From NCBI GenBank assembly GCA_947650365.1, contig OX393550.1:121646374-121710373 (forward strand): 64,000 bases of DNA, given 5' to 3'. Positions 1 through 62,154 of this stretch are shown here, piece after piece (the first letter of the stretch is position 1; each line of letters starts with the position of its first letter). A program made the position numbers and the translations under genes. This DNA comes from Chamaelirium japonicum (taxonomy: Eukaryota > Streptophyta > Magnoliopsida > Liliales > Melanthiaceae). Below the pieces are notes generated by a model. That model saw only the letters and a program-made list of their open reading frames with translations, was not told the DNA's origin and searched no databases.

Positions 1-849
1 TCGTACGAATGAATTAGAATAGATTGTGCGAATGAATTATAATGGATCGTACGAATGAATTAGAATGGATCGTACGAATGAATTAGAATGGATCGTATGA
101 ATGAATTAGAATAGATCGTGTGAATGAATTAGAATGGATCGTACGAATGAAATAGAAAGGATTCGCACGAATGTATCCATTCTAATTCATTCGTACGATC
201 CATTCTAATTCATTCATACAATCCATTCTAATTCATTCGCACGATCCATTCGCATTCACTCAAACGATCCATTCTAATTCATTCATATGATCCATTCTAA
301 TTCATTCGCACGAATGTAACCATTCTAATTCATTCGTACGATCCATTCTAATTCATTCGTACGATCCATTCTAATTCATTCGCACGATCCATTCTAATTC
401 ATGCATACGATCCAATCTAATTCATTCATACGATCCATTCTAATTCATTCGCACGAATGTATCCATTCTAATTCATTCGTACATGTATGAATGAATTAGA
501 ATGGATCGTACGAATGAATTGGAGTTGATACATTCGTGCGAATGAATTAGAATGGATCGTACGAATGAATTAGATTGGATCGTATGAATGAATTATAATG
601 GATCATGCGAATGAATTAGAATAGATCATACGAATGAATTAGAATGGATCCTACGAATGAGTTAGAATGGATACATTCGTGCAAATAAATTAGAAGGGAT
701 CATATGAATGAATCAGAATGGATCGTATGAATTAATTAGAATGGATCGTGCGAATGAATTAGAATGGATCGTGCGAATGAATTAGAATGGATCGTACGAA
801 TGAATTAGAATCGATCGTACGAATGAATTAGAAAGGATACATTCGAATT
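1..849. repeat. Satellite, three orientation blocks
   Basis: Plus-type units (GAATTAGAATGG) run to about 171, minus-type (CCATTCTAATTC) from 172 to 484, and plus-type from 485 to about 845. The flip near 483 is centred on ACATGT inside a long imperfect palindrome. The flip near 845 is at ATTCGAATTCATTCG. Confidence 0.9.
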
Positions 850-1747
850 CATTCGGACGATCCATTCTAATTCCTTCGTACGATCCATATTCTAATTCAT
901 TCGCACGATCCATTCTAATTCATTCATACGATCCATTCTAATTTATTCGCACGATCCATTCTAATTCATTCGTACGATCCATTCTAATTCATTCGCACAA
1001 TCTATTCTAATTCATTCGAACGATCCATTCTAATTCATTCATACGATCTATTCTAATTCATTCGTACGATCTATTCTATTTCATTCGTACAATCCTTTCT
1101 TACTCAATCTTATGATCCATTCTAATCTATTCGCACAATCTATTCTAATTCATTCGTACGATCCATTCTATTTCATTCGTACGATCCATTCTAATTCATA
1201 CGATCCATTCTATTTCATTCATATGATCCATTTTAATTCATTCGCACGATCCATTCTAATTCATTCATACGATCCATTCTAATTCATTTATACGATCCAT
1301 TTTAATTCATTCGCACAATCTATTCTAATTCATTCGTACGATCAATTCTAATTCATTAGCATGATCCATTCAAATTCATTCGTACGATCTATTCTATTTC
1401 ATTCGTACAATCCATTCTTACTCAATCGTATGATCCATTCTAATCGATTCACACAATCTATTCTAATTCATTCGTACGATCCATTCTATTTCATTCGTAC
1501 GATCCATTCTAATTCATACGATCCATTCTATTTCATTCATACGATCCATTTTAATTCATTCGCACGATCCATTCTAATTCATTCATACGATCCATTCTAA
1601 TTCATTCGTACGATCCATTCTAATTTCTTCGTATGATCTATTCTAATTCCTTCGTACGATCCATTCTAATTCATTCATACGATCCATTCTTACTCATTCG
1701 TACGATCCATTCTAATTCATTCACACGATCCATTCTAATTCATCCGT
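850..1747 (-). repeat. Satellite block, minus orientation
   Basis: All units read CCATTCTAATTCATTC. Several units read TATTTCATTC or TTACTCA. The right edge is a palindromic flip at CCGTACGAATG. Confidence 0.92.
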
Positions 1748-2552
1748 ACGAATGAATTAGAATGGATACATTCGTGCGAATGAATTAGAATGGATCATAT
1801 GAATGAATTAGAATGGATCGTACGATTGAGTAAGAATGGATCGTACGAATAAATTAGAATGGATTGAATTAGAATGGATCGTATGAATGAATTAGAATGG
1901 ATCGTTCGAATGAATTAGAATAGATTGTGCGAATGAATTAGAATGGATCGTATGAATGAATTAGAGTGGATCGTGCGAATAAACTAGAATGGATCGTATG
2001 AATGAATTAGAATGGATCATACGAATGAATTAGAATATGGATCGTACGAAGGAATTAGAATGGATCGTACGAATGAGTAAGAATGGATCGTATGAATGAA
2101 TTAGAATGGATTGAATTAGAATGAATCGTACGAATGAATTAGAATGGATCGTACGAATGAATTAGAATGGATCGTACGAATGAATTAGAATGGATTGAAT
2201 TAGAATGGATCGTGCGAATGAGTAAGAATGGATCGTACGATTGAATTAGAATGGATCGTACGAATGAATTAGAATGGATCGTACGAATGAATTAGAATGG
2301 ATTGAATTAGAATGAATCGTACGAATGAATTAGAATGAATCATACCGTACGAATGAATTAGAATGGATCATACGAAGGAATTAGAATGGATCGTACGAAT
2401 TAATTAGAATGGATCGTACGAATGAATTAGAATGGATCGTACGAAGGAATTAGAATGGATCGTAGGAAGGAATTAGAATAGATAGTACGAACGAATTAGA
2501 ATGGATACCTTCGTGCAAATGAATTAGAATGGATCATACGAATGAGTAAGAA
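1748..2552 (+). repeat. Satellite block, plus orientation
   Basis: Plus-type units include several 15-bp short units (GATTGAATTAGAATG). From about 1,945 this is the first copy of the 3.1-kb duplication. The flip at about 2,552 reads GTAAGAATCCATTC. Confidence 0.92.
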
Positions 2553-4880
2553 TCCATTCTATTTCCTTCGTATGATCCATTCTAATTCATTCGTACGGTA
2601 TGATTCATTCTAATTCATTCGTACGATTCATTCTAATTCAATCCATTCTAATTCATTCGTACGATCCATTCTAATTCATTCGTACGATTCATTCTAATTC
2701 AATCCATTCTAATTCATTCGTACGAATGAATTAGAATGGATCGTACGAATGAATTAGAATGGATCGTACGAATGAGTTAGAATGGATCGTACGAATAAAT
2801 TAGAATGGATCGTATGAATGAATTAGATTGGATCGTATTAATGAATTAGAATGGATCGTACGAATGAATTAGAATAGATCGTACGAATGAATTAGAATGG
2901 ATACGAATGGATCGTACGAATGAGTAAGAATGGATCGTACGAATGAAATAGAATGGATTGTATGAATGAATTAGAATGGATTGTATGAATGAATTAGAAT
3001 GGATCGTGCGAATGAATTAGAATGGATACATTCGTGCGAATGAATAAGAATGGATCGTATGAATGAATTAGATTGGATCGTATGAATGAATTAGAATGGA
3101 TTGTATGAATTAGAATGGATACCTTCGTGCAAATGAAATAGAATGGATCGTACGAATGAATTAGAGTAGATTGTGCGAATGAAATAGAATGGGTTGTACG
3201 AATGAGATAGAATGGATCGTACGAATGAATTAGAATGGATACATTCATGCGAATGAATTAGAATGGATCATACGAATGAATTAGAATGGATTCATTCGTG
3301 CGAATGAATTAGAATGGATCGTACGAACGAGTAAGAATGGATCGTACGAATGAATTAGAATGAATCGTACGAATGAATTAGAATGGATCGTACGAATGAA
3401 TTAGAATGGATCGTACGAATGAATTAGAATGGATTGAATTAGAATGGATCGTACGATAAGAATGGATCGTACGAATGAAATAGAATAGATCGTACGAATA
3501 AATGAATTTGGATCGTGCTAATGAATTAGAATGGATCGTACGAATGAATTAGAATGGATCGTACTAATGAATTAGAATAGATTGTGCGAATGAATTAGAA
3601 TGGATTGTACGAATGAATTAGAAAGGATATATTCGTGCGAATGAATTAGAATAGATCGTACGAATGAGATAGAATGGATCGTACAAATGAATTAGAATGG
3701 ATACATTCATGCGAATGAATTAGAATGGATCATACGAATGAATTAGAATGGATCGTACGAATGAAATAGAATGGATTGTACGAATGAGATAGAATGGATC
3801 GTTCGAATGAATTAGAATGGATACATTCATGCGAATGAATTAGAATGGATCATGCGAATGAATTAGAATGGATCGTGCGAATGAATTAGAATTGATCGTA
3901 CGAATGAAATAGAATGGATTGTACGAATGAGATAGAATAGATCGTACGAATGAATTAGAATGGATACATTCATGCGAATGAATTAGAATGGATCATACGA
4001 ATGAATTAGAATGGATTCATTCGTGCGAATGAATTAGAATGGATCGTACGAATGAGTAAGAATGGATCGTACGAATGAATTAGAATGGATTGAATTAGAA
4101 TGAATCGTACGAATGAATTAGAATGGATCGTATGAATGAATTAGAATGGATCGTACGAATGAATTAGAATGGATTGAATTAGAATGAATCGTACGAATGA
4201 ATTAGAATGAATCATACCGTACGAATGAATTAGAATGGATCATACGAAGGAATTAGAATGGATCGTGCGAATAAATTAGAATGGATCATATGAATGAATT
4301 AGAATAGATTGTGCGAATGAATTAGAACTGATCGTACGAATGAATTAGAATGGATACATTCGTGCGAATGAATTAGAATGGATCGTATGAATGAATTAGA
4401 ATCGATCGTATGAATGAATTAGAATGGATCATGTGAATGAATTAGAATGGATCGTGCGAATGAATTAGAATGGATCGTACGAATGAAATAGAATGCATTG
4501 TACGAATAAGATAGAATGGATCGTACGAATGAATTAGAATGGATACATTCATGCGAATGAATTAGAATGGATCATACGAATGAATTAGAATGGATTCATT
4601 CGTGCGAATGAATTAGAAGGGATCGTACGAATGAGTAAGAATGGATCGTACGAATGAATTAGAATGGATTGAATTAGAATGAATCGTACGAATGAATTAG
4701 AATGGATCGTACGAATGAATTAGAATGGATCGTACGAATGAATTAGAATGGATTGAATTAGAATGAATCGTACGAATGAATTAGAATGAATCATACCGTA
4801 CGAATGAATTAGAATGGATCATACAAAGGAATTAGAATGGATCGTACGAATGAATTAGAATGGATCGTACGAATGAATTA
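1945..4880 (+). repeat. 3.1-kb duplication, copy 1
   Basis: Matches 5,040-7,970. The offset is 3,095 bp up to about 3,350, 3,110 bp after a 15-bp unit gain in copy 2, and 3,087 bp near the end after a 23-bp unit loss. All offset changes are single monomers. Confidence 0.88.
2553..2721 (-). repeat. Short inverted satellite block
   Basis: About 170 bp of minus-type units bounded on the right by a perfect palindrome centred on CGTACG at 2,719-2,724. It recurs at 5,649-5,816. Confidence 0.9.
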
Positions 4881-5648
4881 GAGTGGATCGTGCGAATAAA
4901 TTAGAATGGATCGTATGAATGAATTAGAATGGATCATGCGAATGAATTAGAATATGGATCGTACGAAGGAATTAGAATGGATCGTACGAATGAGTAAGAA
5001 TGGATCGTATGAATGAATTAGAATGGATTGAATTAGAATGAATCGAACGAATGAATTAGAGTGGATCGTGCGAATAAATTAGAATGGATCGTATGAATGA
5101 ATTAGAATGGATCATGCGAATGAATTAGAATATGGATCGTACGAAGGAATTAGAATGGACCGTACGAATGAGTAAGAATGGATCGTATGAATGAATTAGA
5201 ATGGATTGAATTAGAATGAATCGTACGAATGAATTAGAATGGATCGTACGAATGAATTAGAATGGATCGTACGAATGAATTAGAATGGATTGAATTGGAA
5301 TGGATCGTGCGAATGAGTAAGAATGGATCGTACGATTGAATTAGAATAGATCGTACGAATGAATTAGAATGGATCGTACGAATGAATTAGAATGGATTGA
5401 ATTAGAATGAATCGTACGAATGAATTAGAATGAATCATACCGTACGAATGAATTAGAATGGATCATACGAAGGAATTAGAATGGATCGTACGAATGAATT
5501 AGAATGGATCGTACGAATGAATTAGAATGGATCGTACGAAGGAATTAGAATGGATCGTAGGAAGGAATTAGAATGGATAGTACGAATGAATTAGAATGGA
5601 TACCTTCGTGCAAATGAATTAGAATGGATCGTACGAATGAGTAAGAAT
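2722..5648 (+). repeat. Long plus-orientation satellite block
   Basis: Continuous plus-type units, with many 28-bp units (GATACATTCATGCG or GATACATTCGTGCG). A second 28-bp variant containing AATCATACCGTACG is also present. A nested duplication of about 178 bp lies at 4,880-5,160. Confidence 0.93.
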
Positions 5649-7970
5649 CCATTCTATTTCCTTCGTATGATCCATTCTAATTCATTCGTACGGTATGATT
5701 CATTCTAATTCATTCGTACGATTCATTCTAATTCAATACATTCTAATTCATTCGTACGATCCATTCTAATTCATTCGTACGATTCATTCTAATTCAATCC
5801 ATTCTAATTCATTCGTACGAATGAATTAGAATGGATCGTACGAATGAATTAGAATGGATCGTACGAATGAGTTAGAATGGATCGTACGAATAAATTAGAA
5901 TGGATCGTATAAATGAATTAGATTGGATCATATTAATGAATTAGAATGGATCGTACGAATGAATTAGAATAGATCGTACGAATGAATTAGAATGGATACA
6001 AATGGATCGTACGAATGAGTAAGAATGGATCGTACGAATGAAATAGAATGGATTGTATGAATGAATTAGAATGGATTGTATGAATGAATTAGAATGGATC
6101 GTGCGAATGAATTAGAATGGATACATTCGTGCGAATGAATTAGAATGGATCGTATGAATGAATTAGATTGGATCGTATGAATGAATTAGAATGGATTGTA
6201 TGAATTAGAATGGATACCTTCGTGCAAATGAAATAGAATGGATCGTACGAATGAATTAGAGTAGATTGTGCGAATGAAATAGAATGGGTTGTACGAATGA
6301 GATAGAATGGATCGTACGAATGAATTAGAATGGATACATTCATGCGAATGAATTAGAATGGATCATACGAATGAATTAGAATGGATTCATTCGTGCGAAT
6401 GAATTAGAATGGATCGTACGAATGAGTAAGAATGGATCGTACGAATGAATTAGAATGGATTGAATTAGAATGAATCGTACGAATGAATTAGAATGGATCG
6501 TACGAATGAATTAGAATGGATCGTACGAATGAATTAGAATGGATTGAATTAGAATGGATCGTACGATAAGAATGGATCGTACGAATGAAATAGAATAGAT
6601 CGTACGAATAAATGAATTTGGATCGTGATAATAAATTAGAATGGATCGTACGAATGAATTAGAATGGATCGTACTAATGAATTAGAATAGATTGTGCGAA
6701 TGAATTAGAATGGATCGTACGAATGAATTAGAAAGGATATATTCGTGCGAATGAATTAGAATAGATCGTACGAATGAGATAGAATGGATCGTACAAATGA
6801 ATTAGAATGGATACATTCATGCGAATGAATTAGAATGGATCATACGAATGAATTAGAATGGATCGTACGAATGAAATAGAATGGATTGTACGAATAAGAT
6901 AGAATGGATCGTACGAATGAATTAGAATGGATACATTCATGCGAATGAATTAGAATGGATCATGCGAATGAATTAGAATGGATCGTGCGAATGAATTAGA
7001 ATAGATCGTACGAATGAAATAAAATGGATTGTACGAATGAGATAGAATGGATCGTACGAATGAATTAGAATGGATACATTCATGCGAATGAATTAGAATG
7101 GATCATACGAATGAATTAGAATGGATTCATTCGTGCGAATGGATTAGAATGGATCGTACGAATGAGTAAGAATGGATCGTACGAATGAATTAGAATGGAT
7201 TGAATTAGAATGAATCGTACGAATGAATTAGAATGGATCGTATGAATCAATTAGAATGGATCGTACGAATGAATTAGAATGGATTGAATTAGAATGAATC
7301 GTACGAATGAATTAGAATGAATCATACCGTACGAATGAATTAGAATGGATCATACGAAGGAATTAGAATGGATCGTGCGAATAAATTAGAATGGATCATA
7401 TGAATGAATTAGAATAGATTGTGCGAATGAATTAGAACTGATCGTACGAATGAATTAGAATGGATACATTCATGCGAATGAATTAGAATGGATCGTATGA
7501 ATGAATTAGAATCGATCGTATGAATGAATTAGAATGGATCATGCGAATAAATTAGAATGGATCGTGCGAATGAATTAGAATGGATCGTATGAATGAAATA
7601 GAATGCATTGTACGAATGAGATAGAATGGATCGTACGAATGAATTAGAATGGATACATTCATGCGAATGAATTAGAATGGATCATACGAATGAATTAGAA
7701 TGGATTCATTCGTGCGAATGAATTAGAAGGGATCGTACGAATGAGTAAGAATGGATCGTACGAATGAATTAGAATGGATTGAATTAGAATGAATCGTACG
7801 AATGAATTAGAATGGATCGTACGAATGAATTAGAATGGATTGAATTAGAATGAATCGTACGAATGAATTAGAATGAATCATACCGTACGAATGAATTAGA
7901 ATGGATCATACGAAGGAATTAGAATGGATCGTACGAATGAATTAGAATGGATCGTACGAATGAATTAGAA
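5040..7970 (+). repeat. 3.1-kb duplication, copy 2
   Basis: Second copy including the 170-bp inverted block. Almost directly adjacent to copy 1, separated by a nested duplication of about 178 bp. Confidence 0.88.
5649..5816 (-). repeat. Short inverted satellite block (copy)
   Basis: Copy of 2,553-2,721 at a 3,095-bp offset, again ending on a CGTACG-centred palindrome (5,814-5,819). Confidence 0.9.
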
Positions 7971-8345
7971 TGGATCGTACGAAGGAATTAGAATGGATCG
8001 TACGAAGGAATTAGAATGGATAGTGCGAATGAATTAGAAGGGATACCTTCGTGCAAATGAATTAGAATGGATCGTACGAATGAGTAAAAATGGATCGTAC
8101 GAATGAAATAGAATGGATCGTATGAATGAATTAGAATGGATCGTGCGAATGAATTAGAATGGATCGTACGAATGAATTAGAATAGATTGTGCGAATGAAT
8201 TAGAATGGATCGTACGAATAAATTAGATTGGGGGAATTAGAATGGATCGTGCGAATGAATTAGAATAGATCATACGAATGAATTAGAATGGATCGTACGA
8301 AGGAATTAGAATGGATCGTACGAATGAATTAGAAAGGATACATTC
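5817..8345 (+). repeat. Plus-orientation satellite block
   Basis: Up to about 7,970 this is the second copy of the 3.1-kb duplication, then similar unduplicated units. It ends at the recurrent ATACATTCGAATTCATTCG switch. Confidence 0.93.
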
Positions 8346-10024
8346 GAATTCATTCGTACGATCCTTTCTAATTCCTTCGTACGATCCATATTCTAATTCA
8401 TTCGCACGATCTATTCTAATTCATTCATACGATCCATTCTAATTTATGCGCACGATCCATTCTAATTCATTCGTACGATCCATTCTAATTCATTCGCACA
8501 ATCTATTCTAATTCATTCGAACGATCCAATCTAATTCATTCGTACGATCCATTCTAATTCATTCGTACGATCTATTCTATTTCATTCGTACAATCCATTC
8601 TTACTCAATCGTATGATCCATTCTAATCCATTCGCACAATCTACTCTAATTCATTCGTACGATCCATTCTATTTCATTTGCACGAAGGTATCCATTCTAA
8701 TTCATTCGTACTATCCATTCTAATTCCTTCGTACGATCCATTCTAATTCATTCGTACGATCCATTCTAATTCATTCGCACGATCCATTCTAATTCATTCG
8801 CACGATCCATTCTAATTCATTCGCATGATCCATTCTAATTTATTCGTACGATCGATTCTAATTCATTCATACGATCCATTCTAATTCATTCGCACAAATG
8901 TATCCATTCTAATTCATTCGTACGATCCATTCTAATTCATTCATACGATCCATCCTAATTCATTCGCACGAATGTATCTATTCTAATTCATTCGTACAAT
9001 CCATTCTATTTCATTCGTACGATCCATTCTTACTCATTCGTACGATCCATTCGTATCCATTCTAATTCATTCGTACGATCTATTCTAATTCATTCGTACG
9101 ATCCATTCTAATTCATTAATACGATCCAATCTAATTCATTCATACGATCCATTCTAATTCATTCGTACGATCCATTCTAATTCATTCGCACGATCCATTC
9201 TAATTCACTCGCACGATCCATTCTAATTCATTCATACGATCCATTCTAATTCATTCGTACGATCCATTCTAATTCATTCATACGATCCATTCTAATTCAT
9301 TCGTACGGTATGATTCGTTCTAATTCATTCGTACGATTCATTCTAATTCAATCCATTCTATCTCATTCGTACAATCCATTCTATTTCATTCGCACAATCT
9401 ATTCTAATTCATTCATACGATCCATTCTAATTTATTAGCACGATCCATTCTAATTCATTCATACGATCCATTCTAATTCATTCGTACGATCCATTCTAAT
9501 TCATTCGTACGATCCATTCTAATTCATTCGTACGATCCATTCTAATTCATTCGTACGATCCATTCTAATTCATTCGTACGATCCATTCTAATTCATTCGT
9601 ACGATCCATTCTAATTCATTCGTACGATCCATTCTAATTCATTCGCACAATCTATTCTAATGCATTCGTACGATCCATTCTAATTCATTCGCACGATCCA
9701 TTCTAATTCATTCATACGATCTATTCTATTTCATTCGTACGATCCATTCTAATTCATTTGCACGAAGGTGTCCATTCTAATTCATTCGTACTATCCATTC
9801 TAATTCCTTCGTACGATCCATTCTAATTTATTCGTACGATCCATTCTAATTCATTCGTACGATATTCATTCGTACGATCCATTCTAATTCATTCGCACGA
9901 TCCATTCTAATTCATTCGTACGATCCATTCTAATTCATTCGTACGATCCATTCTAATTCATTCGCACGATCCATTCTAATTCATTCGCACGATCCATTCT
10001 AATTCATTAGCACGATCCATTCTT
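8346..10024 (-). repeat. Minus-orientation satellite block
   Basis: Minus-type units with a run of near-identical 23-bp copies around 9,470-9,640. This is one of the most homogeneous stretches in the window. The right flip reads CCATTCTTACGAATGAGTAAG. Confidence 0.92.
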
Positions 10025-10139
10025 ACGAATGAGTAAGAATGGATCGTACGAATGAAATAGAATGGATTGTATGAATGAATTAGAATGGATTCATTCGTGC
10101 GAATGAATTAGAATGGATCATACGAATGAATTAGAATGG

Positions 10140-10730
10140 ATCGTACGAATGAATTAGAATGGATCGTACGAATGAATTAGAATGGATCGTGTGAAAGAAT
10201 TAGAATGGATTGTATGAATGAATTAGAATGGATCGTATGAATGAATTAGAATGGATCAGACGAATGAATTAGAATGGATCGTACGAATGAATTAGAATGG
10301 ATCGTACGAATGAATTAGAATGGATACATTCGGGCGAATGAATTAGAATGGATCATACGAATGAGTAAGAATGGATCGTACGAATGAAATAGAATGGATT
10401 GTACGAATGAATTAGAATGGATCGTACGAATGAATTAGAATAGATTGTATGAATGAATTAGAATGGATACATTCGTGCGAATGAATTATAATGGATCGTA
10501 CGAATGAATTAGAATAGATCGTGCGAATGAATTAGAATGGATCGTACGAATGAATTAGAATAGATTGTGCGAATGAATTAGAATGGATCGTATGAATGAA
10601 TTAGATTATGATCCATTTTATTTCATTCGTATGATTCATTCTAATTCATTCGTACGATTCATTCTAATTCAATCCATTCTAATTTATTCGTACGATCCAT
10701 TCTAATTCATTCGTACGATCCATTCTAATT
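10140..10730 (+). repeat. 0.93-kb-offset duplication, copy 1
   Basis: Matches 11,073-11,650 at a 933-bp offset, including the flip TTAGATTATGATCCATTT (10,601 and 11,534). Limits approximate. Confidence 0.8.
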
Positions 10731-11072
10731 CATTCGTACGATTCATTCTAATTCAATCCATTATAATTCATTCATACGATCCATTCTTACTCATTCGTAC
10801 GATCCATGGATCATACGATTAAGTAAGAATGGATTGTACGAATGAAATAGAATAGATCGCACGAATAAATTAGAATGGATCATGCTAATGAATTAGAATG
10901 GATTGTACGAATGAATTATAATGGATACATTCATGCGAATGAATTAGAATGGATCATACGAATGAGTAAGAATGGATCGTACGAATAAAATAGAATGGAT
11001 TGTACGAATGAATTAGAATGGATCGTACGAATGAATTAGAATAGATTGTATGAATGAATTAGAATGGATACA

Positions 11073-11650
11073 TTCGTGCGAATGAATTAGAATGGATTGT
11101 ACGAATGAATTAGAATGGATCATGTGAAAGAATTAGAATGGATTGTATGAATGAATTAGAATGGATCGTATGAATGAATTAGAATGGATCGGACGAATGA
11201 ATTAGAATGGATCGTACGAATGAATTAGAATGGATCGTACGAATGAATTAGAATGGATACATTCGTGCGAATGAATTAGAATGGATCATACGAATGAGTA
11301 AGAATGGATCGTACGAATGAAATAGAATGGATTGTACGAATGAATTAGAATGGATCGTACGAATGAATTAGAATAGATTGTATGAATGAATTAGAATGGA
11401 TACATTCGTGCGAATGAATTAGAATGGATCGTACGAATGAATTACAATAGATCGTGCGAATGAATTAGAATGGATCGTACGAATGAATTAGAATAGATTG
11501 TGCGAATGAATTAGAATGGATCGTATGAATGAATTAGATTATGATCCATTTTATTTCATTCGTATGATTCATTCTAATTCATTCGTACGATTAAATCTAA
11601 TTCAATCCATTCTAATTCATTCGTACGATCCATTCTAATTCATTCGTACG
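11073..11650 (+). repeat. 0.93-kb-offset duplication, copy 2
   Basis: Second copy of 10,140-10,730. Limits approximate. Confidence 0.8.
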
Positions 11651-26433: not shown

Positions 26434-26458
26434 GTATGTGAGTGGATCGTGTTTTTTC
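26434..26458 (+). repeat. 25-bp spacer, copy 2
   Basis: Same 25 bp as at 22,113, in the same position between a short minus block and a long plus block. Confidence 0.9.
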
Positions 26459-49853: not shown

Positions 49854-49915
49854 GGATTTTCTGGTGGTAAACGGCGGTCTCTGCTGCCGTATCCGGGGAT
49901 CCTCCAGGTAAGGCT

Positions 49916-50144: not shown

Positions 50145-50302
50145 TTTGCAGACTTCTTGCCAAAATTTGCACCCACAGTTACCCCCTCCAAGTTAGCTAG
50201 AGTACGTTCTGGCTGGCTTGGATTTGGTGCAAAAAACAGCAACATCCTGTCTAAAGAAGGTACAAAAGAGGCTTGCCAAGTGTTAGCGCCAAAAAAAGAT
50301 TT
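50145..50302. other. Unique spacer in LTR-like region
   Basis: About 160 bp of unique sequence between the two repeat arrays. No gene, promoter or RNA was recognised. Confidence 0.5.
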
Positions 50303-50726: not shown

Positions 50727-51757
50727 CAGATCTAGTAGAAAATTGACCGATCGGTTGGTTTTGGCCGAACGGTTATGTTTTAACCGTTCGGCTAAAATCA
50801 GCCGGTCAGAGTTTGGGTGATCGGCAAAAACCTTCAGTTTTTTGCCAGATCTAGTAGAAAATCGACCGATCGGTTGATTTTGGCCGAACGGTCATATTTG
50901 ACCGTTCGGCTAAAATCAGCCGGTCAGGGTTTGGGTGATCGGCAAAAACCCTCAGTTTTTGGCCAGATCTAGTAGAAAATCGACCGATCGATTGATTTTG
51001 ACCGAACGGTCAAGTTTGACCGTTCGGCTAAAATCAGCCGGTTAGGGTTTGGGTGACCGGCAAAAACCTTCAGTTTTTGGCCAGATCTAGTAGAAAATCG
51101 ACCGATCGATTGATTTTGACCGAACGGTCAAGTTTGACCGTTCGGCTAAAATCAGCCGGTCAGGGTTTGGGTGATCGGCAAAAACCTTCAGTTTTTGGCC
51201 AGATCTAGTAGAAAATCGACCGATCGATTGATTTTGACCGAACGGTCAAGTTTGACCGTTCGGCTAAAATCAGCCGGTCAGGGTTTGGGTGACCGGCAAA
51301 AACCTTCAGTTTTTGGCCAGATCTAGTAGAAAATCGACCGATCGATTGATTTTGACCGAACGGTCAAGTTTGACCGTTCGGCTAAAATCAGCCGGTCAGG
51401 GTTTGGGTGATCGGCAAAAACCTTCAGTTTTTGGCCAGATCTAGTAGAAAATCGACCGATCGATTGATTTTGACCGAACGGTCCAGTTTGACCGTTCGGC
51501 TAAAATCAGCCGGTCAGGGTTTGGGTGATCGGCAAAAACCTTCAGTTTTTGGCCAGATCTAGTAGAAAATCGACCGATCGATTGATTTTGACCGAACGGT
51601 CAAGTTTGACCGTTCGGCTAAAATCAGCCGGTCAGGGTTTGGGTGATCGGCAAAAACCTTCAGTTTTTGGCCAGATCTAGTAGAAAATCGACCGATCGAT
51701 TGATTTTGACCGAACGGTCAAGTTTGACCGTTCGGCTAAAATCAGCCGGTCAGGGTT
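50727..51757. repeat. 118-bp tandem repeat array
   Basis: Nine units beginning CAGATCTAGTAGAAAA at 50,727, 50,846, 50,964, 51,082, 51,200, 51,318, 51,436, 51,554 and 51,672. Spacing is 118 bp (first 119), and the last unit is partial. Each holds GACCGAACGGTC, GACCGTTCGGC and CGACCGATCGATTG. Later units are nearly identical, implying recent expansion. The unit is a shortened, diverged relative of the adjacent 154-bp unit. Confidence 0.95.
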
Positions 51758-52208
51758 AGTTTTGAACCTGTACTTTCGAAGAAGTGGTATAGCTTGTTCT
51801 TCTCCTTTGATCTTTGGCAGTCTTGAATATTGATGGAGTTTGATTTTTTTTTTTTTCTTGCTTTTGCATCTTTGGTCTTTTTTGAATGGTTCTTCTGAAC
51901 CGGCGGTCCGGTTCACTCGGACCGGTGGTTTGCTTGGACCGTTGGTTTGCTCGGACCGGTGGTCTGACGTTTCGCCTGGTCGCGACTGTTCGCCTGGTTT
52001 TGCGCTTGCTACGGATGGATGCCACGTGTACCTACAAAAACACGCGATTTGATATGGTGAAGACACGTGTCTTCTCGATTTGCGCACCTGTTTTACCCTG
52101 GGTATATAAGTTTTACTGGCTGTCATTTTTCGCCTCACGCTTCCAAAAATTTTCGAAGTCCAGATCCTTTGCTTCCTTCTTCTTGTTCATTTCCTTTCGA
52201 TCGGTTAA
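51758..52208 (+). promoter_or_regulatory. Promoter and leader of the plus-strand gene
   Basis: Unique 450 bp between the repeat array and the ATG. It contains a run of T at about 51,844-51,856, two CACGTG G-boxes (52,023-52,028 and 52,064-52,069), a TATATAA box at 52,103-52,109 and a CT-rich leader. The expected start is about 30 bp after the TATA box, giving a leader of roughly 75 bp. CACGTG is the known core for plant bZIP and bHLH factors. That these regulate the gene is inference. Confidence 0.6.
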
Positions 52209-53502
52209 ATGGCATCTTCGGGCAGTTCAAAGAAGAGCTTTGTTCCTTCTAAGAGGAAGGGCAAGGAAGTTGTCGAGGTTTCTTCTGCTCCGAAGGGACG
52301 AGGCAAAGGCAGGGCCGAATTGATTGAGCTTGGCCAACTGGGTAAGAGGCATCAAGGAGTTGGATTTGCATCAGCCCCATCAAGGCCAGAGCAGATCCCC
52401 AAGGCGAAATTTGTTCTCTGCCCGCAGATACCTCTGGAGGCGGAGCCTGAGTTTGGGTACAATATCGGCAGTAAGCTAACAGATGCGAAGAGGGAGAAGC
52501 TGCATGAGTTGCTGTCATTCTTCACAGAGGGAAAGGCTCGACCAGCGCTTCCGGGTGTTCTCTCTGCTTTCGGTGTTGACAGGCGGACAGTCTTTGTCTC
52601 GTGGGCGAGCAAAGAGCAAGTGATGGGAACCATGATCACGATCGGCCAGCTCAACTGTGGACTGCGCCTTCCGCTACCGCCTTTCGCCGCGAGGCTGCTG
52701 AACGTTTCCGGTCTCTGTCCCGGGCAAGTGACTGGGAACTCCTGGAGGATCATCTACGCTTTCTGTCGCGTAGAGTCGGATTTCCAGAAGGAGCTCAGGG
52801 AATGCTACTCCAGCATCCCTGCAGGTGAAGAAGCCCGAATCGAACTGGGGTATTTCTTCTATCACTACCGATGGGCTTGGAGGAAGGACAGCCCGTTCTA
52901 CTACTTGACAGGTGTTACTGCCCTCCGCCCGATCTCCGATACCGTCGGTTCTGACAAGCTCTATACTGACTGGTCGTTGTCGATATCTGGTGCCTGGACT
53001 CCTATGTCTGTTCCAGAGGTTCCTCGATTCAAGGTGCACAAGGAGACTGATATATACTGCACAGGAGGAGCTCTCTCTTGGGCTCCAGAACGAGTAGGGG
53101 CCCTCGACAATCTCTTTTTGGAGTTAACGTGCGGGACCCGATCTTGGAGGCAATTCTCGAATTGCCCAGTCCGACACGGCAAGGCCAACCTCCTCCACCG
53201 ATCGAAGCTTCGATATGAAGACAATGAGGTAATCTACTCTGATTATGAGGAGGACCCTCAGTCTGGAAAAATTGTTAGGAAGCTTCGATTCGAAAAGAAG
53301 GCTTATGTAGCCAGGCGAGCGCTTCCCTCAAAGGAGAGATTGGTGATTCCAAAGGGCCCGGCGAAGAAGAAGAGAAAAATCCTCATCAGACAGGAGGATG
53401 AGGAGAAAAAGAAGGATGAAGATGAAGAAGAGGAGGTAGAGAGGGAGGAGGGCGGAGATGAGGAGGATGAAGGCACAGGCAGCGAAGGAGAAGATGGAGA
53501 GG

Positions 53503-53541
<39 letters not shown>

Positions 53542-54216
53542 GGGGTGGTGAGGAAGAGATTCCTCCCACCCCCACTGATGGTGGTCATGGACATGGGGGT
53601 GGTGAGGAAGAAATTCCTCCCACCCCCACTGATGGTGGTCATGGACATGGGGGTGGTGAGGAAGAAATTCCTCCCACCCCCACTGGTGGTGTTGACGAGG
53701 AATCGCAGCCTATCCTCATAGACGAGGGTAAGGCTCGAAGGATGGAGGGAGTTATGGACGCCACGGGAGATGGCTCCAGGGTGATTCCCACCTACGACTT
53801 TGGGGCGTTGAAGAAGAACCCCCTGCGTTTCAAGATCAGGATATCGGGGAGTGGTGGGGTTGGAAGCAACCCCACACCCCTCGATCAGATACCTCCTGAG
53901 GTTCCCCTTCTCGAAGGGGCAACAACTACAAGTGGGGGTGTGGAGGTTGAACAACCCCCACCACCCTCACGATCTCTGGCTGAAGAAGTAGCTGCCATGG
54001 TGGCAGGGCTCGACCATCCGAGCGGGCGAGAAGACGAAGTGGGAGCCTCACCTCCTCGGGATGTTCCCTCTCCTGCTCATATGGAGAGAGGAAGCCGGGT
54101 GGGTGATGCTACCCCTCAACCCTTGCCAGAGCCAACCCCCACCAAGGAGAAGTCGACCCCCAAGGGTAAGAGCTCCGATCGTGGAAAGGGAAAGGCTCCT
54201 CAGGTCGAGGCTTCAG
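52209..54216 (+). CDS. PF04195-like 'putative gypsy type transposon' protein, first exon
   Basis: Long open frame from an ATG in good plant context (TTAAATGGC), about 100 bp after a TATA box. The N-terminus (1-50) is Ser/Lys/Arg-rich. Residues about 65-320 look globular. They contain LRLPLPPFAARLLN (152-165) and NSWRIIYAF (177-185), similar in layout to plant 'putative gypsy type transposon' proteins. PAKKKRK (384-390) resembles a classical nuclear localisation signal. An acidic stretch (395-449) with 12 Asp (433-444) follows, then three GGGEEEIPPTPTDGGHGH-type repeats (445-492), then a Pro/Ser-rich tail. No catalytic motif was recognised, so function is unknown; nuclear location is inferred. 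The frame stays open to 54,239, but GT at 54,217 and AG at 54,296 suggest an 81-bp intron (inferred). It lies antisense to the presumed LTR element. Confidence 0.65.
53506..53690 (+). repeat. In-frame GAT run and 54-bp repeats
   Basis: A GAT trinucleotide run (poly-Asp) is followed by units of 54 bp at 53,541, 53,595 and 53,649 (the last is shorter). They encode GGGEEEIPPTPTDGGHGH-type repeats. Period 54 keeps the frame, and the near identity of the units suggests recent slippage. They also produce low-complexity shadow frames on the other strand. Confidence 0.9.
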
Positions 54217-54297
54217 GTACCTGTACTGACTTACCTTGATTGACTTGCCGTTGAAGCTCGAAAATATTCTAACACTTTGATCTCTCGTTGATTGCAG

Positions 54298-54434
54298 GTG
54301 CGCCTGTTGGCTCGACCCCAAAGATGAAGAGTTTGGGTGACGTTGACATCAACCACCCCACAGCCGTGATCCGGAAACTCTGCAATCTTCCAGGGGCTAC
54401 TCTGGATGAAGCTTTCGACAGGCTCGAACTGGTG
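54298..54434 (+). CDS. Probable second exon of the same gene
   Basis: Open segment of 137 bp between a TTGCAG acceptor (54,292-54,297) and a GTAAGT donor (54,435-54,440). It encodes about 46 residues including DVDINHPTAVIRKLCNLP and LDEAFDRLEL, which are helix-prone. Phase agrees with the upstream open segment. Splicing is inferred from consensus sites only. Confidence 0.55.
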
Positions 54435-54507
54435 GTAAGTGCATCTTGCTCGAAGGATCATCTGAATTGCATCTTCAGAATAATTCTAACTCTTTGTCCA
54501 TTTGCAG

Positions 54508-54924
54508 AACTCAGCTTGTTTGAAAATCGCAAGCAAGCTCTCCAGGAAGGCAGGAGAACGGGAAGCCGCCTCCGAGGTGACCCGTTTGACAGCTGAACTG
54601 AAGGCTGTGAGCGAGGAAAGAGATGGGCTGAGGGAGCTTCTGAGTTCAAAGAAACAATCTCTCAAGGCCAAGATCGAGGATCTCCGCAAGGGGAAGCTGG
54701 AGATCAAGGGGCTGCAGGATCGTTGCGAGGCGCAGAGTCACGAGCTTGAATCCTTGAAGAATCGACTCTCCAAGGTTGAGGACGTGTCCTGCGGTCGCAC
54801 TATCGAGATCAAGGAGCTGAAGGAACAACTTGCTACTCAGCACGCTGCCTTTACTGCCAGAGAGGAGACTTCCAAGAAGGCACTGGAGCATGCGCTGTCT
54901 GAATGCAAGGTTTACAAGGAATGA
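54508..54924 (+). CDS. Probable third exon: coiled-coil segment running into satellite
   Basis: Open segment after a TTTGCAG acceptor (54,501-54,507); the preceding 73-bp intron is inferred. It encodes about 138 residues rich in Lys, Glu, Leu and Arg with heptad-like spacing, for example VTRLTAELKAVSEERDGLRE and IEIKELKEQLATQHAAF. This is a long coiled coil, common at the C-terminus of this plant transposon-protein family. Gene-derived sequence stops at about 54,919 against the satellite, so the block ends here. Confidence 0.55.
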   Translation, partial: NSACLKIASKLSRKAGEREAASEVTRLTAELKAVSEERDGLRELLSSKKQSLKAKIEDLRKGKLEIKGLQDRCEAQSHELESLKNRLSKVEDVSCGRTIEIKELKEQLATQHAAFTAREETSKKALEHALSECKVYKE

Positions 54925-56035
54925 ATTAGAATGGATACATTTGTGCAAAAGAATTAGAATGGATTGTATGATTGAATTAGAATGGATCGTGCGAATGAAT
55001 TAGAATGGATCGTGCGAATGAATTAGAATGGATCGTACGAATGAATTAGAATGGATCGTACGAATGAATTAGAATGGATCGTACGAATGAATTAGAAAGG
55101 ATACATTCAAATTCATTCGTACGATCCATTCTAATTCCTTCGTACGATCCATATTCTAATTCATTCGCACGATCCATTCTAATTCATTCATACGATCCAT
55201 TCTAATTTATTCGCACGATCCATTGTAATTCATTCGTACGATCCATTCTAATTCATTCGCACAATCTATTCTAATTCATTCGAACGATCCATTCTAATTC
55301 ATTCATACGATCCATTCTAATTCATTCGTACGATCTATTCTATTTCATTCGTACAATCCTTTCTTACTCAATCGTATGATCCATTCTAATCCATTCGCAC
55401 AATCTATTCTAATTCATTCGTACGATCCATTCTATTTCATTCGTACGATCCATTCTAAGATCCATTCCAATTTATTCCCACGATCCATTCTAATTCATTC
55501 GTACGATCCATTCTAATTCATTCGCACAATCTATTCTAATTCATTCGAACGATCCATTCTAATTCATTCATACGATCCATTCTAATTCATTCGTACGATC
55601 TATTCTATTTCATTCGTACAATCCTTTCTTACTCAATCGTATGATCCATTCTAATCCATTCGTACGATCCATTCTAATTCATTAGTACGATCCATTCTAT
55701 TTCATTCGTACGATCCATTCTTACTCATTCGTACGATCCATTCTAATTCATTTGCACGAAGGTATCCATTCTAATTCATTCATACTATCCATTCTAATTC
55801 ATTCGTACTATCCATTCTAATTCCTTCGTACGATCCATTCTAATTCCTTTGTACGATCCATTCTAATTCATTCGTACGATCTAATTTAATTCATTCGTAC
55901 GATCCATTCTAATTCATTCGTACGATCCATTCTAATTCATTCGCACGATCCATTCTAATTCATGCATACGATCCAATCTAATTCATTCATACGATCAATG
56001 CTAATTCATTCGCACGAATGTATCCATTCGTACGA
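54920..56035. repeat. Satellite after the gene-bearing block
   Basis: Plus-type to about 55,106, switch at ATTCAAATTCATTCG, then minus-type to a CGATCG flip (56,033-56,038). The duplication junction is at about 55,940. Confidence 0.92.
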
Positions 56036-57539
56036 TCGTGCGAATGAATTAGAATGGATACCTTTGTGCAAATGAATTAGAATGGATCGTACGAATGAGT
56101 AAGAATGGATCGTACGAATGAAATAGAATGGATCGTATGATTGAATTAGAATGGATCGTGCGAATGAATTAGAATGGATCGTACGAATGAATTAGAATAG
56201 ATTGTGCGAATGAATTAGAGTGGATCGTGCGAAGGAATTAGAATGGATCGTACGAAGGAATTAGAATGGATCATACGAAGGAATTAGAATGGATAGTATG
56301 AATGAATTAGAATGGATACCTTCGTGCAAATGAATTAGAATGGATCGTACGAATGAGTAAGAATGGATCGTACGAATGAAATAGAATGGATCGTATGAAT
56401 GAATTAGAATGGATCGTGCGAATGAATTAGAATGGATCGTACGAATGAATTAGAATAGATTGTGCGAATGAATTAGAATGGATCGTGCGAATGAATTAGA
56501 ATATAGATCGTACGAATGAATTAGAATGGATCGTACGAATGAATTAGAATGGAATATACGAATGAATTAGAATGGATCGTACGAATGAATTAGAATGGAT
56601 ACATTCGTGCGAAAGAATTAGATTGGATCGTATTAATGAATTAGAATGGATCGTACGAATGAATTAGAATAGATCGTACGAATGAACTAGAATGGATACG
56701 AATGGATCGTACGAATGAGTAAGAATGGATCGTACGAATGAAATAGAATGGATTGTACGAATGAATTAGAATGGATACATTCGTGCGAATGAATTAGAAT
56801 GGATACATTCGTGCGAATGAATTAGAATCGATCGTACGAATGAATTAGAATGGATCATGCGAATGAATTAGAATGGATCGTGCGAATGAATTAGAATGGA
56901 TCGTACGAATGAAATAGAATGGATTGTACGAATGAATTAGAATGAATCATACCGTACGAATGAATTAGAATGGATCATACGAAGGAATTAGAATGGATCG
57001 TACGAATGAATTAGAATGGATCATACGAATGAGTAAGAATGGATCGTACGAATGAAATAGAATGGATCATATGAATGAATTAGAATGGATCGTGCGAATG
57101 AATTAGAATGGATACATTCGTGCGAATGAATTAGAATGGATCGTATGAATGAATTAGATTGGATCGTATGAATGAATTAGAATGGATCGTGCGAATGAAT
57201 TAGAATGGATCGTACGAATGAATTAGAATGGATCGTTTGAATGAATTAGAATGGATCGTACTTATGAATTAGAATGGGTCATACGAATGAAATAGAATGG
57301 ATCGTACGAAGGAATTAGAAAGGATCGTACAAACGAATTAGAATGGATCATATGAATGAAATAGAATAGATCGTACGAATGAATTAGAATGGATCGTATG
57401 AATGAATTAGATTAGATCATATGAATGAATTAGAATTGATTGTACGAATGAAATAGAATAGATCGTACGAATGAATTAGAATGGATCGTGCGAAAGAATT
57501 AGAATGGGTCGTACGAATGAATTAGAATGGATACACGAT
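56036..57539 (+). repeat. Plus-orientation satellite block (duplication copy 2)
   Basis: Matches 43,354-44,858 at a 12,682-bp offset with scattered single-base differences. Confidence 0.93.
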
Positions 57540-58369
57540 CCAGATCCATTCTAATTCATTCGCACAATCTATTCTAATTCATTCGTAGGATCCATTCTAA
57601 TTCATTACTACGATCCATTCTAACTCATTCATACGATCCATTCTAATTCATTCGTACGATCAATTCTAATTCATTCGAACGATCCTTTCTAATTCATTCA
57701 TACGATCCATTCTAATTCATTCGTATGTATCCATTCTAATTCATTCATACGATCCATTCTAATTCTACGATCCATTCTTACTCATTCGTATTATCCATTT
57801 TAATTCATTCACACGAATGTATCAACTCTAATTCATTCGTATGATCCATTCTAATTCATTCGCACGAATGTATTGATTCTAATTCATTCGTACGATCCAT
57901 TCTAATTCATTCGTACGATCCATTCTAATTCATTCGTACGATCCATTCAAATTCCTTCGTATGATCCATTCTAATTCATTCGCACGAATGTATCCATTCT
58001 AATTCATTCATACGATCCATTCTAATTCATTCGTACGATCCATTCTAATTCCTTCGTATGATCCATTCTAATTCATTCGCACGAATGTATCCATTCTAAT
58101 TCATTCATACGATCCATTCTAATTCATTCATACGATCCATTCTAAATCCTACGTATGATCCATTCTAATTCATTCGTACGATCAATTCTAATTCATACGA
58201 TCCATTCTAATTCATTCGCACAATCTATTCTAATTCATTCGTACGATCCATTATAAATCATTCGCACGAATGTATCCATTCTAAATCATTCGTACGATCC
58301 ATTCTAATTCATTCATACGATCCATTCAAATTCATTCGCATGAATGTATCCATTCTAATTCATTCGTAC
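57540..58369 (-). repeat. Minus-orientation satellite block (duplication copy 2)
   Basis: Matches 44,859-45,687, including the unusual units CTAAATCCTACG and CACGAATGTATTGATTC. Confidence 0.93.
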
Positions 58370-61278
58370 GAAGGAATTAGAATGGTTTGTACGAAGGAAT
58401 TAGAATGGATCATACGAATGAATTAGAATGGATACATTCGTGCGAATGAATTAGAACGGATCGTACGAATGAGTAAGAATGGATCGTACGAATGAAATAG
58501 AATGGATCGTACGGATGAATTAGAATGGATCGTGCGAATGAATTAGAATGGATCGTACGAATGAGTAAGAATGGATCGTATGAATGAATTAGAATGGATC
58601 GTGCGAATAAATTAGAATGGATCGAACGAATGAATTAGAATGGATCATACGAATGAATTAGAATGGATCGTATGAATGAATTAGAATGGATCGTGCGAAT
58701 GAATTAGAATGGATTATATGAATGAAATAGAATGGATCATACGAATGAAATAGAATGGATCGTACGAAGGAATTAGAATGGATCGTATGAATGAATTAGA
58801 TTGCATACATTCGTGCGAATGAATTCGAATAGATCGTGCGAATGAATTAGAATGGATTGTACGAATGAATTAGAATGGATCGTACGAATGAAATAGAATG
58901 GATCGTACGAATGAATTAAAATAGATACATTCGTGCAAAAGAAATAGAATGGATTGTATGAATGAATTAGAATGGATCGTGTGAATGAATTAGAATGGAT
59001 CATACGAATGAATTAGAATGGATACATTCGTGCGAATGAATTAGAATGGATCGTGCGAATGAATTAGAATGGATCGTACGAATGAATTAGAATGGATCGT
59101 GCGAATGAATTAGAATGGATCGTGCGAATGAATTAGAATGGATCGTACGAATGAATTAGAATGGATCGTATGAATGAATTAGATTGGATCGTATTAATGA
59201 ATTAGAATGGATCGTACGAATGAATTAGAATAGATCGTACGAATGAATTAGAATGGATACGAATGGATCGTACGAATGAATAAGAATGGATCGTACGAAT
59301 GAAATAGAATGGATTGTACGAATGAATTAGAATGGATACATTTATGCGATTGAATTAGGATGGATCGTATGAATGAATAAGAATAGATTGTGCGAATGAA
59401 TTAGAATGGATCGTACGAATGAATTAGAATGGATACATTCATGCGAATGAATTAGAATGGATCGTATGAATGGATTAGAATGGATCGTATGAGTGAATTA
59501 GAATGGATACGAAGGAATTAGAATGGATCGTACGAAGGAATTAGAATGAAGAATTGATCGTGCGAATGAATTAGAATGGATCGTGCGATAAGAATGGATC
59601 GTACGAATGAAATAGAATAGATCGTACGGATAAATGAATTTGGATCATGCTAATGAATTAGAATGGATCGTACGAATGAATTAGAATAGATCATACTAAT
59701 GAATTAGAATAGATTGTGCGAATAAATTAGAATGGATCGTACGAATGAATTAGAAAGGATATATTCGTGCGAATGAATTAGAATAGATCGTATGAATGAA
59801 TTAGATTGGATCGTATTAATGAATTAGAATGGATCGTGCGAATGAATTAGAATGGATCGTACGAATGAATTAGAATGGATCGTACGAATGAGTAATAATG
59901 GATCGTACGAATGAAATAGAATGGATCGTATGAATGAATTAGAATGGATCGTGCGAATGAATTAGAATGGATCGTACGAATGAATTAGACTAGATTGTGC
60001 GAATGAATTAGAATGGATCGTACGAATGAATTAGAATGGATCGTACGAATGAATTAGAATGGATCGTATGAATGAATTAGAATGGATCGTGCGAATGAAT
60101 TAGAATGGATCGTACGAATGAATTAGAATGGATCGAACGAATGAATTAGAATGGATACATTCGTGCAAAAGAATTAGAATGGATTGTATGAATGAATTAG
60201 AATGGATCATGCGAATGAATTAGAATGGATCGTACGAATGAATTAGAATGGATACATTCGTGCGAATTAATTAGAATGGATCATACGAATGAATTAGAGT
60301 TGATACATTCGTGTGAATGAATTAAAATGGATAATACGAATGAGTAAGAATGGATCGTAGAATTAGAATGGATCGTATGAATGAATTAGAATGGATCGTA
60401 CGAATGAATTAGAATGGATACATTCGTGCGAATGAATTAGAATGGATCGTACGAATGAGTAAGAATGGATCGTACGAATGAAATAGAATGGATCGTACGG
60501 ATGAATTAGAATGGATCGTGCGAATGAATTAGAATGGATCGTACGAATGAGTAAGAATGGATCGTATGAATGAATTAGAATGGATCGTGCGAATGAGTTA
60601 GAATGGATCGTACGAATGAGTAAGAATGGATCGTATGAATGAATTAGAATGGATCGTGCGAATAAATTAGAATGGATCAAACGAATGAATTAGAATGGAT
60701 CATACGAATGAATTAGAATGGATCGTATGAATGAATTAGAATGGATGGTGCGAATGAATTAGAATGGATTATATGAATGAAATAGAATGGATCATACGAA
60801 TGAAATAGTATGGATCGTACGAAGGAATTAGAATGGATCCTATGAATGAATTAGAGTGGATACATTGAATGAATTAGAGTGGATACATTCGTACAAATGA
60901 ATTAGAATGGATCGTACGAATGAATTAGAATGGATTGTATGAATGAATTAGAATGGAACGTGCGAATGAATTAGAATGGATACATTCGTGCGAATGAATT
61001 AGAATGGATCGTATGAATGAATTAGACTGGATCGTATGAATGAATTAGAATGGATTGCATGAATTAGAATGGATACCTTCGTGCAAATGAAATAGAATGG
61101 ATCGTACGAATGAATTAGAGTAGATTGTGCGAATGGAATAGAATGGATCATACGATTGAGTAAGAATGGATTGTACGAATGAAATAGAATAGATCGTACG
61201 AATGAATTAGAATGGATCGTACGAATGAAATAGAATGGATCGTTCGAATGAATTAGAATAGATTGTGCGAATGAATTC
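58370..61278 (+). repeat. Plus-orientation satellite block (duplication copy 2)
   Basis: Matches 45,688-48,566, with one extra 28-bp unit near 60,150. Confidence 0.93.
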
Positions 61279-62154
61279 GCACGATCCATTCTAATTCATT
61301 CATACGATCCATTCTAATTCATTCGTACAATCCATTCTAATTCATTCGTACGATCCATTCTAATTCATTCGCACAATCTATTTTAATTCATTCGTACGAT
61401 CCATTCTAATTCATTCGTACGATCCATTCTAATTCATTCGTACGATCTATTCTATTTCATTCGTACAATCCATTTGTATGATCCATTCTAATTCCTTCGT
61501 ATGATCCATTCTAATTCATTCGCACGATCCATTCTAATTCATTCATACGATCCATTCTAATTCATTCATACGATCCATTCTAATTCATTCGAATGGATTC
61601 GCACGAATGTATCCATTCTAATTCATTCGTACGATCCATTCTAATTCATTCTTACAATCCATTCTAATTCATTCGCACATCCATTCACATTCACTCAAAC
61701 GATCCATTCTAATTCATTCATACAATCCATTCTAATTCTTTTGCACGAATGTATCCATTCTAATTCATTCGTACGATCCATTCTAATTCATTCGTACGAT
61801 CTATTCTAATTCATTCGCATGATCCATTCTAATTCCTTCGTACGATCCATTTTAATTCATTCGCACGATCCATTCTAATTCATTCATACGATCCATTCTA
61901 ATTCATTCGTACGATCCATTCTAATTTCTTCGTGTGATCTATTCTAATTCCTTCGTACGATCCATTCTAATTCATTCATACGATCTATTCTAATTCTTTC
62001 GCAAGAATGTATCCATTCTAATTCATTCGTACGATCCATTCTAATTCCTTCGTACGATCCATATTCTAATTCATTCGTACGATCCATTCTAATTTATTCG
62101 TACAATCCATTCTAATTCATTCGCACGAATGTATCCATTCTAATTCATTCGCAC
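61279..62154 (-). repeat. Minus-orientation satellite block (duplication copy 2)
   Basis: Matches 48,567-49,445. A one-base difference near 61,679 sets the offset to 12,709 from there on. Confidence 0.93.

Follow-up and report, generated by a model that had tools for sequence, protein, structure and literature searches.

A 64-kb stretch of Chio1/Chio2-type satellite in which new tail-to-tail strand switches seem to form preferentially at the TCGTACGA dyad

Holocentromeres built from very short repeats are uncommon, and the two papers on the Chionographis and Chamaelirium satellites leave open how such repeats spread along whole chromosomes (PMC10264360, PMC12722358). In Chionographis japonica, Chio arrays carry CENH3 nucleosomes in units of 0.24-4.46 Mb spread along each chromosome, and these CENH3-loaded arrays provide spindle attachment along the chromosome length (PMC10264360). 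The window, by which we mean the whole stretch of 64,000 bases analysed here, raises the question of whether it belongs to such an array and how its satellite came to alternate in orientation.

A two-strand cyclic HMM parse of the whole window attributed 56,681 of the 64,000 bases to a single satellite family (35,100 bp on the plus and 21,581 bp on the minus strand) and 7,319 bp to non-satellite DNA. Identity to the consensus was 94.5% over 56,680 aligned bases, with A and G treated as equivalent where the two variants differ, at a single position. When unit length was taken as the distance between successive phase-0 positions within one block, 1,887 of 2,280 units measured 23 bp, 241 measured 28 bp and 152 had other lengths. 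The 23-bp consensus was AATGAATTAGAATGGATCGTACG (1,887 units, 368 exact), and the 28-bp consensus, AATGAATTAGAATGGATACATTCGTGCG, was derived from the 220 of 241 units that filled all 28 phases (64 exact); loss of ACATT and one G-to-A substitution turn the longer into the shorter, the two being otherwise equal. AATGAATTAGAATG occurred 766 times on the plus and 471 times on the minus strand, and not once in any of 50 mononucleotide shuffles of the window. The 28-mers were spread over the entire array, confirming the original prediction that both lengths are interspersed throughout; adjacent pairs of them were rare (3 of 241 vs about 25 expected under free mixing). The array crosses the left window edge. 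Its last base in the parse is 62154, exactly where the prediction had ended the satellite, but the continuity assumed from position 1 did not hold, as 5,473 bp of unrelated DNA intervene at 49446-54918. Neither the orientation switches nor the copied modules described below figured in that prediction. Variability along the 23-mer was highest within CGTACG, with C-to-T changes reaching 24%, a pattern expected of methyl-CpG decay that amplified haplotypes confound; heavy CpG methylation has been published for the Chio1/Chio2 holocentromere satellite (PMC10264360).

Table 1 Features of the window
Feature	Position	Strand	Basis or remark
Chio1/Chio2-type satellite array, 60 blocks, alternating orientation	1..49445		HMM parse and unit lengths
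Chio1/Chio2-type satellite array resumed, 6 blocks	54919..62154		HMM parse
Non-satellite insert, mobile-element-like, 5,473 bp, start TGTGGGGG, 3'-truncated	49446..54918	+	
676-aa open frame	52209..54236	+	Weak PF04195 match
Second insert copy, cut by window end	62155..64000	+	
Satellite module of about 3.1 kb, two tandem copies (1745-5290, 4843-8339; 94.4%)	1745..8339	+	
Direct duplication, copy 1 (satellite and insert start)	43343..51291	+	Repeated 12.7 kb downstream
Direct duplication, copy 2, cut by window end	56025..64000	+	Pairs with 43343..51291
Satellite adjoining truncated insert	54919..56017		Ungapped 97.3% copy of 37212-38310
Tail-to-tail switch on TCGTACGA dyad axis	1729..1760		Junction parse and distinct-type clustering
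Further distinct tail-to-tail switches on TCGTACGA axis	near 2714 (copy 5809), 11640, 12264		
Further distinct tail-to-tail switches on TCGTACGA axis	near 20525, 39139, 45678 (copy 58360)		

Chio1 and Chio2 of C. japonica are 23- and 28-bp variants with Chio1 dominant, Chio1 corresponding to Chio2 minus 5 bp plus one substitution; the variants are intermingled, forward and reverse arrays are mixed, an 8-bp dyad pairs between neighbouring monomers, and three and four dyad symmetries per monomer have been published for Chio1 and Chio2, respectively (PMC10264360). The 9-mer TTCGTACGA is common to the Chio and Chama satellites (PMC12722358). The satellite studied here shares the two lengths, the dominance of the 23-mer, the ACATT and G/A difference, the 9-mer, an 8-bp dyad with a hairpin between neighbouring monomers, the intermingling and the mixed orientation. 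All 803 copies of TTCGTACGA (314 plus, 489 minus) lay inside satellite; by our own arithmetic, the chance of a given 9-mer in a random 23-bp satellite, on either strand, is about 46/4^9 = 2e-4. The 8-bp self-complementary run on one axis, TCGTACGA, occurred 14 times per kb of satellite and never in the non-satellite DNA of the window. DNA folds through this dyad reached -5.4 kcal/mol for a Chio1-Chio1 dimer (z -2.2; 5 of 200 shuffles were as good), -7.8 kcal/mol for Chio2-Chio2 (z -3.0) and -7.7 kcal/mol for Chio1-Chio2 (z -3.9). The commonest non-canonical join between units (55 of 194, in 10 distinct contexts) deletes 8 bp that cover most of the dyad.

Five 14-17-mers of the consensus were printed in no paper found by a literature text search, the published monomer being given as Fig. 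3b. Judged by the features that the papers describe in words, the window is, with strong support, part of a Chio1/Chio2 array from a holocentric Chionographis plant, most likely C. japonica itself. All text-described features that were compared thus support the original prediction, which placed the window inside one of the megabase-sized, CENH3-positive units of C. japonica with their 23- and 28-bp minisatellites. That an unrelated minisatellite of another organism shares the lengths by coincidence is scarcely credible: lengths, 5-bp and one-substitution relation, dominance, dyad, mixed orientation and TTCGTACGA all agree with Chio1/Chio2, and sequence searches, which covered viruses, prokaryotes and plasmids, returned no exact match to a 27-base consensus pattern among viral contigs or prokaryote genome contigs, nor any to a 2,001-base stretch among plasmids. 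Across the window, scans found no CENP-B box, no plant telomere repeats and no Rfam match at gathering score; the sole ARAGORN call, a 'tRNA-Pyl' at 16161-16258, lies within satellite and was taken as chance.

The insert contains internal tandem repeats of 43, 154 and 118 bp and stops abruptly within a coiled-coil-like frame. Its 676-aa frame matched Pfam PF04195 (putative gypsy type transposon) with an E-value of 6.7e-5 and 23.5 bits, under the 26.2-bit cut-off. A Pfam scan of 12 of the 41 listed frames found no reverse transcriptase or other pol domain; since the insert is truncated, its pol portion may just have gone with the missing end. A scan for a primer-binding site with nine tRNA-complement motifs gave four short matches (50133, 52988, 53771 and 54308) and no clear LTR end, and the loss of the 3' part places a second LTR beyond such a search. 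A CACTA transposon, considered for the CACTG start, was dropped as the start motif of the insert has no reverse complement anywhere in the window, which is weak evidence with the 3' part gone.

A Chio-type array broken by such an insert could lie at the flank of a unit or in an inactive section of it, covered by H3K9me2 heterochromatin instead of CENH3 and without spindle attachment of its own; imaging has shown Chio1 and CENH3 signals to overlap by only about 65%, with H3K9me2 flanking the units (PMC10264360). We regard this as improbable, however, since CENH3-enriched sites coincide with Chio arrays (PMC10264360) and the satellite resumes beyond the insert in the sole case lying fully inside the window. 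By analogy with the published C. japonica arrays, CENH3 loading and spindle attachment are predicted for this one.

The array is a mosaic of copied kilobase modules in both orientations, together with a direct duplication (Table 1). The two copies of the duplication are about 99.5% identical overall (98.4-100% per 250-bp segment) and differ by one 28-bp and one 1-bp gap. The median gap between 28-mers was 166 bp, and intervals of 2, 6, 7 and 14 units exceeded shuffles (z 3.3-4.3). Nucleosome-like spacing of the 28-mers was nevertheless dropped, because the commonest interval lengths (51, 143, 97, 120 and 166 bp) are better explained by a few copied modules; we therefore claim no phasing.

We then considered the strand switches. 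The HMM parse contained 64 orientation switches across 66 satellite blocks, most of them copies (one type occurred 11 times, another 9 times, some inverted). With copied junctions removed, at a threshold for distinct junctions set from a phase-matched null, 30 distinct types remained, 22 tail-to-tail and 8 head-to-head. Short satellites are generally difficult to assemble, and alternating orientation might be an assembly artefact; this is very improbable, as frequent alternation has been published from HiFi assembly (PMC10264360, PMC12722358) and the junctions recur here with shared private variants and within the duplication of about 99.5% identity.

The TCGTACGA dyad axis hosted 7 of the 22 distinct tail-to-tail types (7 of all 30), where about 0.7 of 22 was expected, and none of the 8 head-to-head types. 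When switches were placed at random in the window's own satellite, none of 40 simulated sets reached 7 of 22 on the axis; each recovered 63 of 63 switches, and 3.2% of the tail-to-tail ones fell on the axis. The enrichment depends on the identity threshold chosen for distinct junctions, and its scope is one stretch with 57 kb of satellite. An earlier, cruder clustering (88% over 120 bp) had put 6 of 17 types on the axis, although two axis values were merged in one of those six; it was replaced by the phase-matched-null threshold because it merged different axis values. Raw junction counts were known before the distinct-type test was designed, the axis itself being the published dyad. Judged by their enrichment in this window, new tail-to-tail switches seem to form preferentially at the TCGTACGA dyad. 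The satellite has already been published, whereas this preference is new here; we found no mention of it in the available text of PMC10264360. At head-to-head switches, the mean self-complementary run was 2.1 vs 2.05 expected (p 0.43). The same palindrome could serve head-to-head switches, yet these showed no axis preference.

As the majority of switches are copies (64 in 30 types), those on the axis might descend from one or two ancestral switches, the axis then being no hot spot. We consider this unlikely, though it carries more weight than the other alternatives: the seven axis types are not recognisable as copies of one another, since in none of the 21 pairs do the two flanks both exceed the median of the phase-matched null, whereas two known copies reach 0.987-1.0. 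Some single arms among the seven were fairly similar, rising to 0.907 in 84 comparisons (single-arm null 95th percentile 0.90, 99th 0.94).

Returning to the dyad as a preferred site of switching, we compared the arms flanking each junction. Those of the nine dyad switches were 0.58-0.87 identical without gaps, against a median of 0.77 and a 99th percentile of 0.91 for random arms in a phase-matched null; the only one of the 64 junctions above that percentile, at 16222 (0.924), lies on another axis. Since the similarity of the dyad-switch arms stays within the range of chance, simple self-foldback was rejected as the main source of these switches, and the data fit a palindrome at which different copies were joined. 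The likely starting event would be a break or a stalled fork at the dyad, after which the broken end may join a different, oppositely oriented copy and so produce the switch; the palindrome would let opposite strands share sequence at the switch point. Taken jointly, a Chio1/Chio2 array, a mosaic of copied modules and tail-to-tail switches favoured at TCGTACGA, with a break or stall and joining as the likely route, make up an account that we hold to be highly probable.

Among known systems, Chio1/Chio2 agrees in lengths, 5-bp and one-substitution relation, dominance, dyad pairing, intermingling, mixed orientation and higher-order copies, and comparison by description revealed no difference (PMC10264360). 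The Chama satellite of Chamaelirium luteum shares TTCGTACGA and dyad-rich units, but has a 60-bp monomer in a macro-monocentromere, a uniform orientation and higher-order structure that extend across several hundred kb, and identified arrays without retrotransposons (PMC12722358). Tyba of Rhynchospora pubera is likewise a repeat-based holocentromere satellite; by contrast, it has a 172-bp monomer in 15-25-kb units, 448-727 per chromosome, with Helitron-mediated dispersal suggested (all per PMC10264360). Human fold-back inverted duplications also form large inverted joins, by a fold-back mechanism named in the title of their report (PMC3907307), whereas the dyad-switch arms here are not self-copies.

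The authors of the Chionographis work propose, in general terms, a hairpin, a break and ectopic repair at a shared motif (PMC10264360, PMC12722358). The strand-switch axis offers a concrete, countable test of that idea, for which the existing assembly suffices. More tentatively, and with rather less than even confidence, we suggest that the 8-bp palindrome of the Chionographis and Chamaelirium centromere repeats may be a recombination hot spot that drives rearrangement of the array, a site at which Chio arrays break, flip and re-join with other copies, loss of the octamer giving 15-bp units. If so, the palindrome would help explain both the spread of these repeats and the alternating direction of Chio arrays.

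The window, 64,000 bp with 0 ambiguous bases, was parsed with a cyclic HMM that reads both strands and models the 28-bp unit, a 5-bp stretch of which could be skipped. This partitioned it into 35,100 bp of + satellite, 21,581 bp of - satellite and 7,319 bp of other DNA. Agreement with the consensus was 94.5% over 56,680 aligned satellite bases, with A or G accepted at the single position distinguishing the two variants. As the original prediction held, units of 23 bp (1,887) and 28 bp (241) coexist among the 2,280 measured (152 had other lengths), their consensus units being AATGAATTAGAATGGATCGTACG and AATGAATTAGAATGGATACATTCGTGCG; the core that they were said to share occurs in 1,237 copies over both strands, against zero in every one of 50 shuffles. 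The satellite span proposed, 1-62154, was exact at its endpoint by the HMM parse, but it includes non-satellite DNA at 49446-54918. The 28-mers are rarely neighbours (3/241 adjacent versus ~25 expected) and appear in a repeated order, such as 2111111121211x11x2 (1, 23-mer; 2, 28-mer), a higher-order module present in both orientations. Over the satellite as a whole the CpG observed/expected ratio is 2.3, yet variability along the 23-mer is greatest in its CGTACG bases, where changes are mainly C-to-T, G-to-A and A-to-G. ARAGORN called a tRNA-Pyl at 16161-16258, which lies inside the satellite and was taken as a false positive.

PMC10264360 describes two satellite variants in Chionographis japonica, Chio1 (23 bp, dominant) and Chio2 (28 bp). 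Chio1 lacks 5 bp of Chio2 and has one base substituted; the two are mixed in arrays in both orientations and carry an 8-bp dyad that pairs between adjacent monomers. CENH3 enrichment of the two Chio clusters in that paper was ~11-fold. PMC12722358 adds a 9-mer, TTCGTACGA, common to Chio and the Chamaelirium luteum satellite, Chama, and the window satellite has it as well. Lengths, dominance, deletion/substitution relation, intermingling, mixed orientation and dyad are likewise all present, so that the proposed match to the Chionographis minisatellites was right in every text feature compared. We therefore identify the window, with high but not complete confidence, as the already known Chio1/Chio2 satellite, compared by textual description, since the published letters are in a figure and supplementary table; five 14-17-mers of the consensus had no printed match in the searchable paper text. 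We infer the species name of the window's source. This centromere repeat is remarkable and already published, and the window is a typical piece of it.

The insert at 49446-54918 (table) resembles the 5′ portion of a plant element of gypsy or related type. It contains internal tandem repeats of 43, 154 and 118 bp, the latter two rich in GACCGATCGGTCAA. Its 676-aa frame is followed 3′ by two intron-like gaps, placed by eye, and then by a coiled-coil-like frame that stops where the satellite restarts. No Pfam match at E 0.01 was obtained for ten more frames (12 of 41 frames scanned in all). The C. luteum arrays identified in PMC12722358 are reported to lack retrotransposons.

Mobile-element-like DNA in the window
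Feature	Position	Remark
Insert, mobile-element-like	49446-54918	first bases TGTGGGGG
Second insert copy	62155-64000	duplicated together with satellite flank
676-aa frame of insert	52209-54236	PF04195 match below threshold

Among the 66 satellite blocks (mean length 859 bp) lie 64 orientation switches. At a threshold of 96.25% over 80 bp, derived from phase-matched random junctions, these grouped as 30 types, of which the three most populous have 11, 9 and 5 members, with some members inverted; many switches are thus copies of one another. Of 1,408 self-matches, the longest 70 included a direct copy (1745-5290 versus 4843-8339, 94.4%) and inverted pairs, for example 13750-16413 versus 21939-24610 (88.7%). 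Adjoining the truncated insert, 54919-56017 is an ungapped 97.3% copy of 37212-38310. Kilobase modules have therefore been copied around the array in both orientations. A further direct duplication, of 43343-51291, recurs 12.7 kb on at 56025-64000, the window end, with 98.4-100% identity per 250-bp window (mean ~99.5%) and two gaps, one of 28 bp (one Chio2 unit length) and one of 1 bp. An odd junction module with GTGAGTGGATCGTGTTTTTTC has four copies, at 22114, 26435, 29651 and 30976; its T6 accounts for four of only five A/T runs of at least 6 in the satellite, the fifth being A6 at 12465.

We then located each switch by its axis, the sum of the consensus phases on both sides, which is independent of exact switch placement. 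The consensus has one outstanding axis, the 8-bp self-complementary run TCGTACGA; every other axis has at most 4. On it lay 7 of the 22 distinct tail-to-tail types and none of the 8 head-to-head types (binomial tail at 1 in 23, 2.8e-5 for tail-to-tail and 2.5e-4 for all 30 types), in a test run after the raw junction counts were already known. Cruder junction clustering gave 6/17. We also ran 40 simulations in which switches were placed at random in satellite taken from this window, with blocks of at most 1,500 bp. The parser found 63/63 switches in every run; the share of tail-to-tail switches lying on the axis was 3.2% (of 1,240), and no simulated set had as many as 7/22 (maximum 3; tail at the 3.2% rate, 4e-6). 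No two of the seven axis types can be recognised as copies: with 150-bp flanks, 21/21 pairs were under the null median, known copies scoring 0.987-1.0, and some single arms were up to 0.907 alike. Self-complementary runs were also longer than expected at the 15 off-axis tail-to-tail types (2.6 versus 1.77, p 0.002), and not at the 8 head-to-head types (2.1 versus 2.05, p 0.43).

In the simplest hairpin model, a strand copies itself. Arms beside the axis switches were no more alike than random arms, which opposes this model: either the strand did not simply copy itself or the arms diverged long ago. The data fit better with a process in which different, oppositely oriented copies would be joined at the shared palindrome. 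The 28-mer's additional CATT lengthens the opposite-strand match on one side (CATTCGTRCGA), and from this sequence the tail-to-tail bias might arise. The switch at 16222, off the main dyad axis, is the only one of 64 with arm similarity (0.924 over 92 bp) above the random 99th percentile, and is possibly a true fold-back.

The commonest non-canonical join (55/194, in 10 distinct contexts) deletes 8 bp, CGTACGAA in 23-mer terms, leaving the 15-bp unit TGAATTAGAATGGAT at 55 sites (for example, 1864, 2111, 2195 and 2302). This loss points to instability of the dyad, and the joins may be largely inherited.

We found no earlier analysis of the strand-switch axis in the openly readable literature searched. 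The authors of PMC12722358 propose in general terms that a motif forms a hairpin, leading to a break and ectopic repair. The strand-switch axis is what the present analysis adds, and it makes that proposal testable on the whole assembly.
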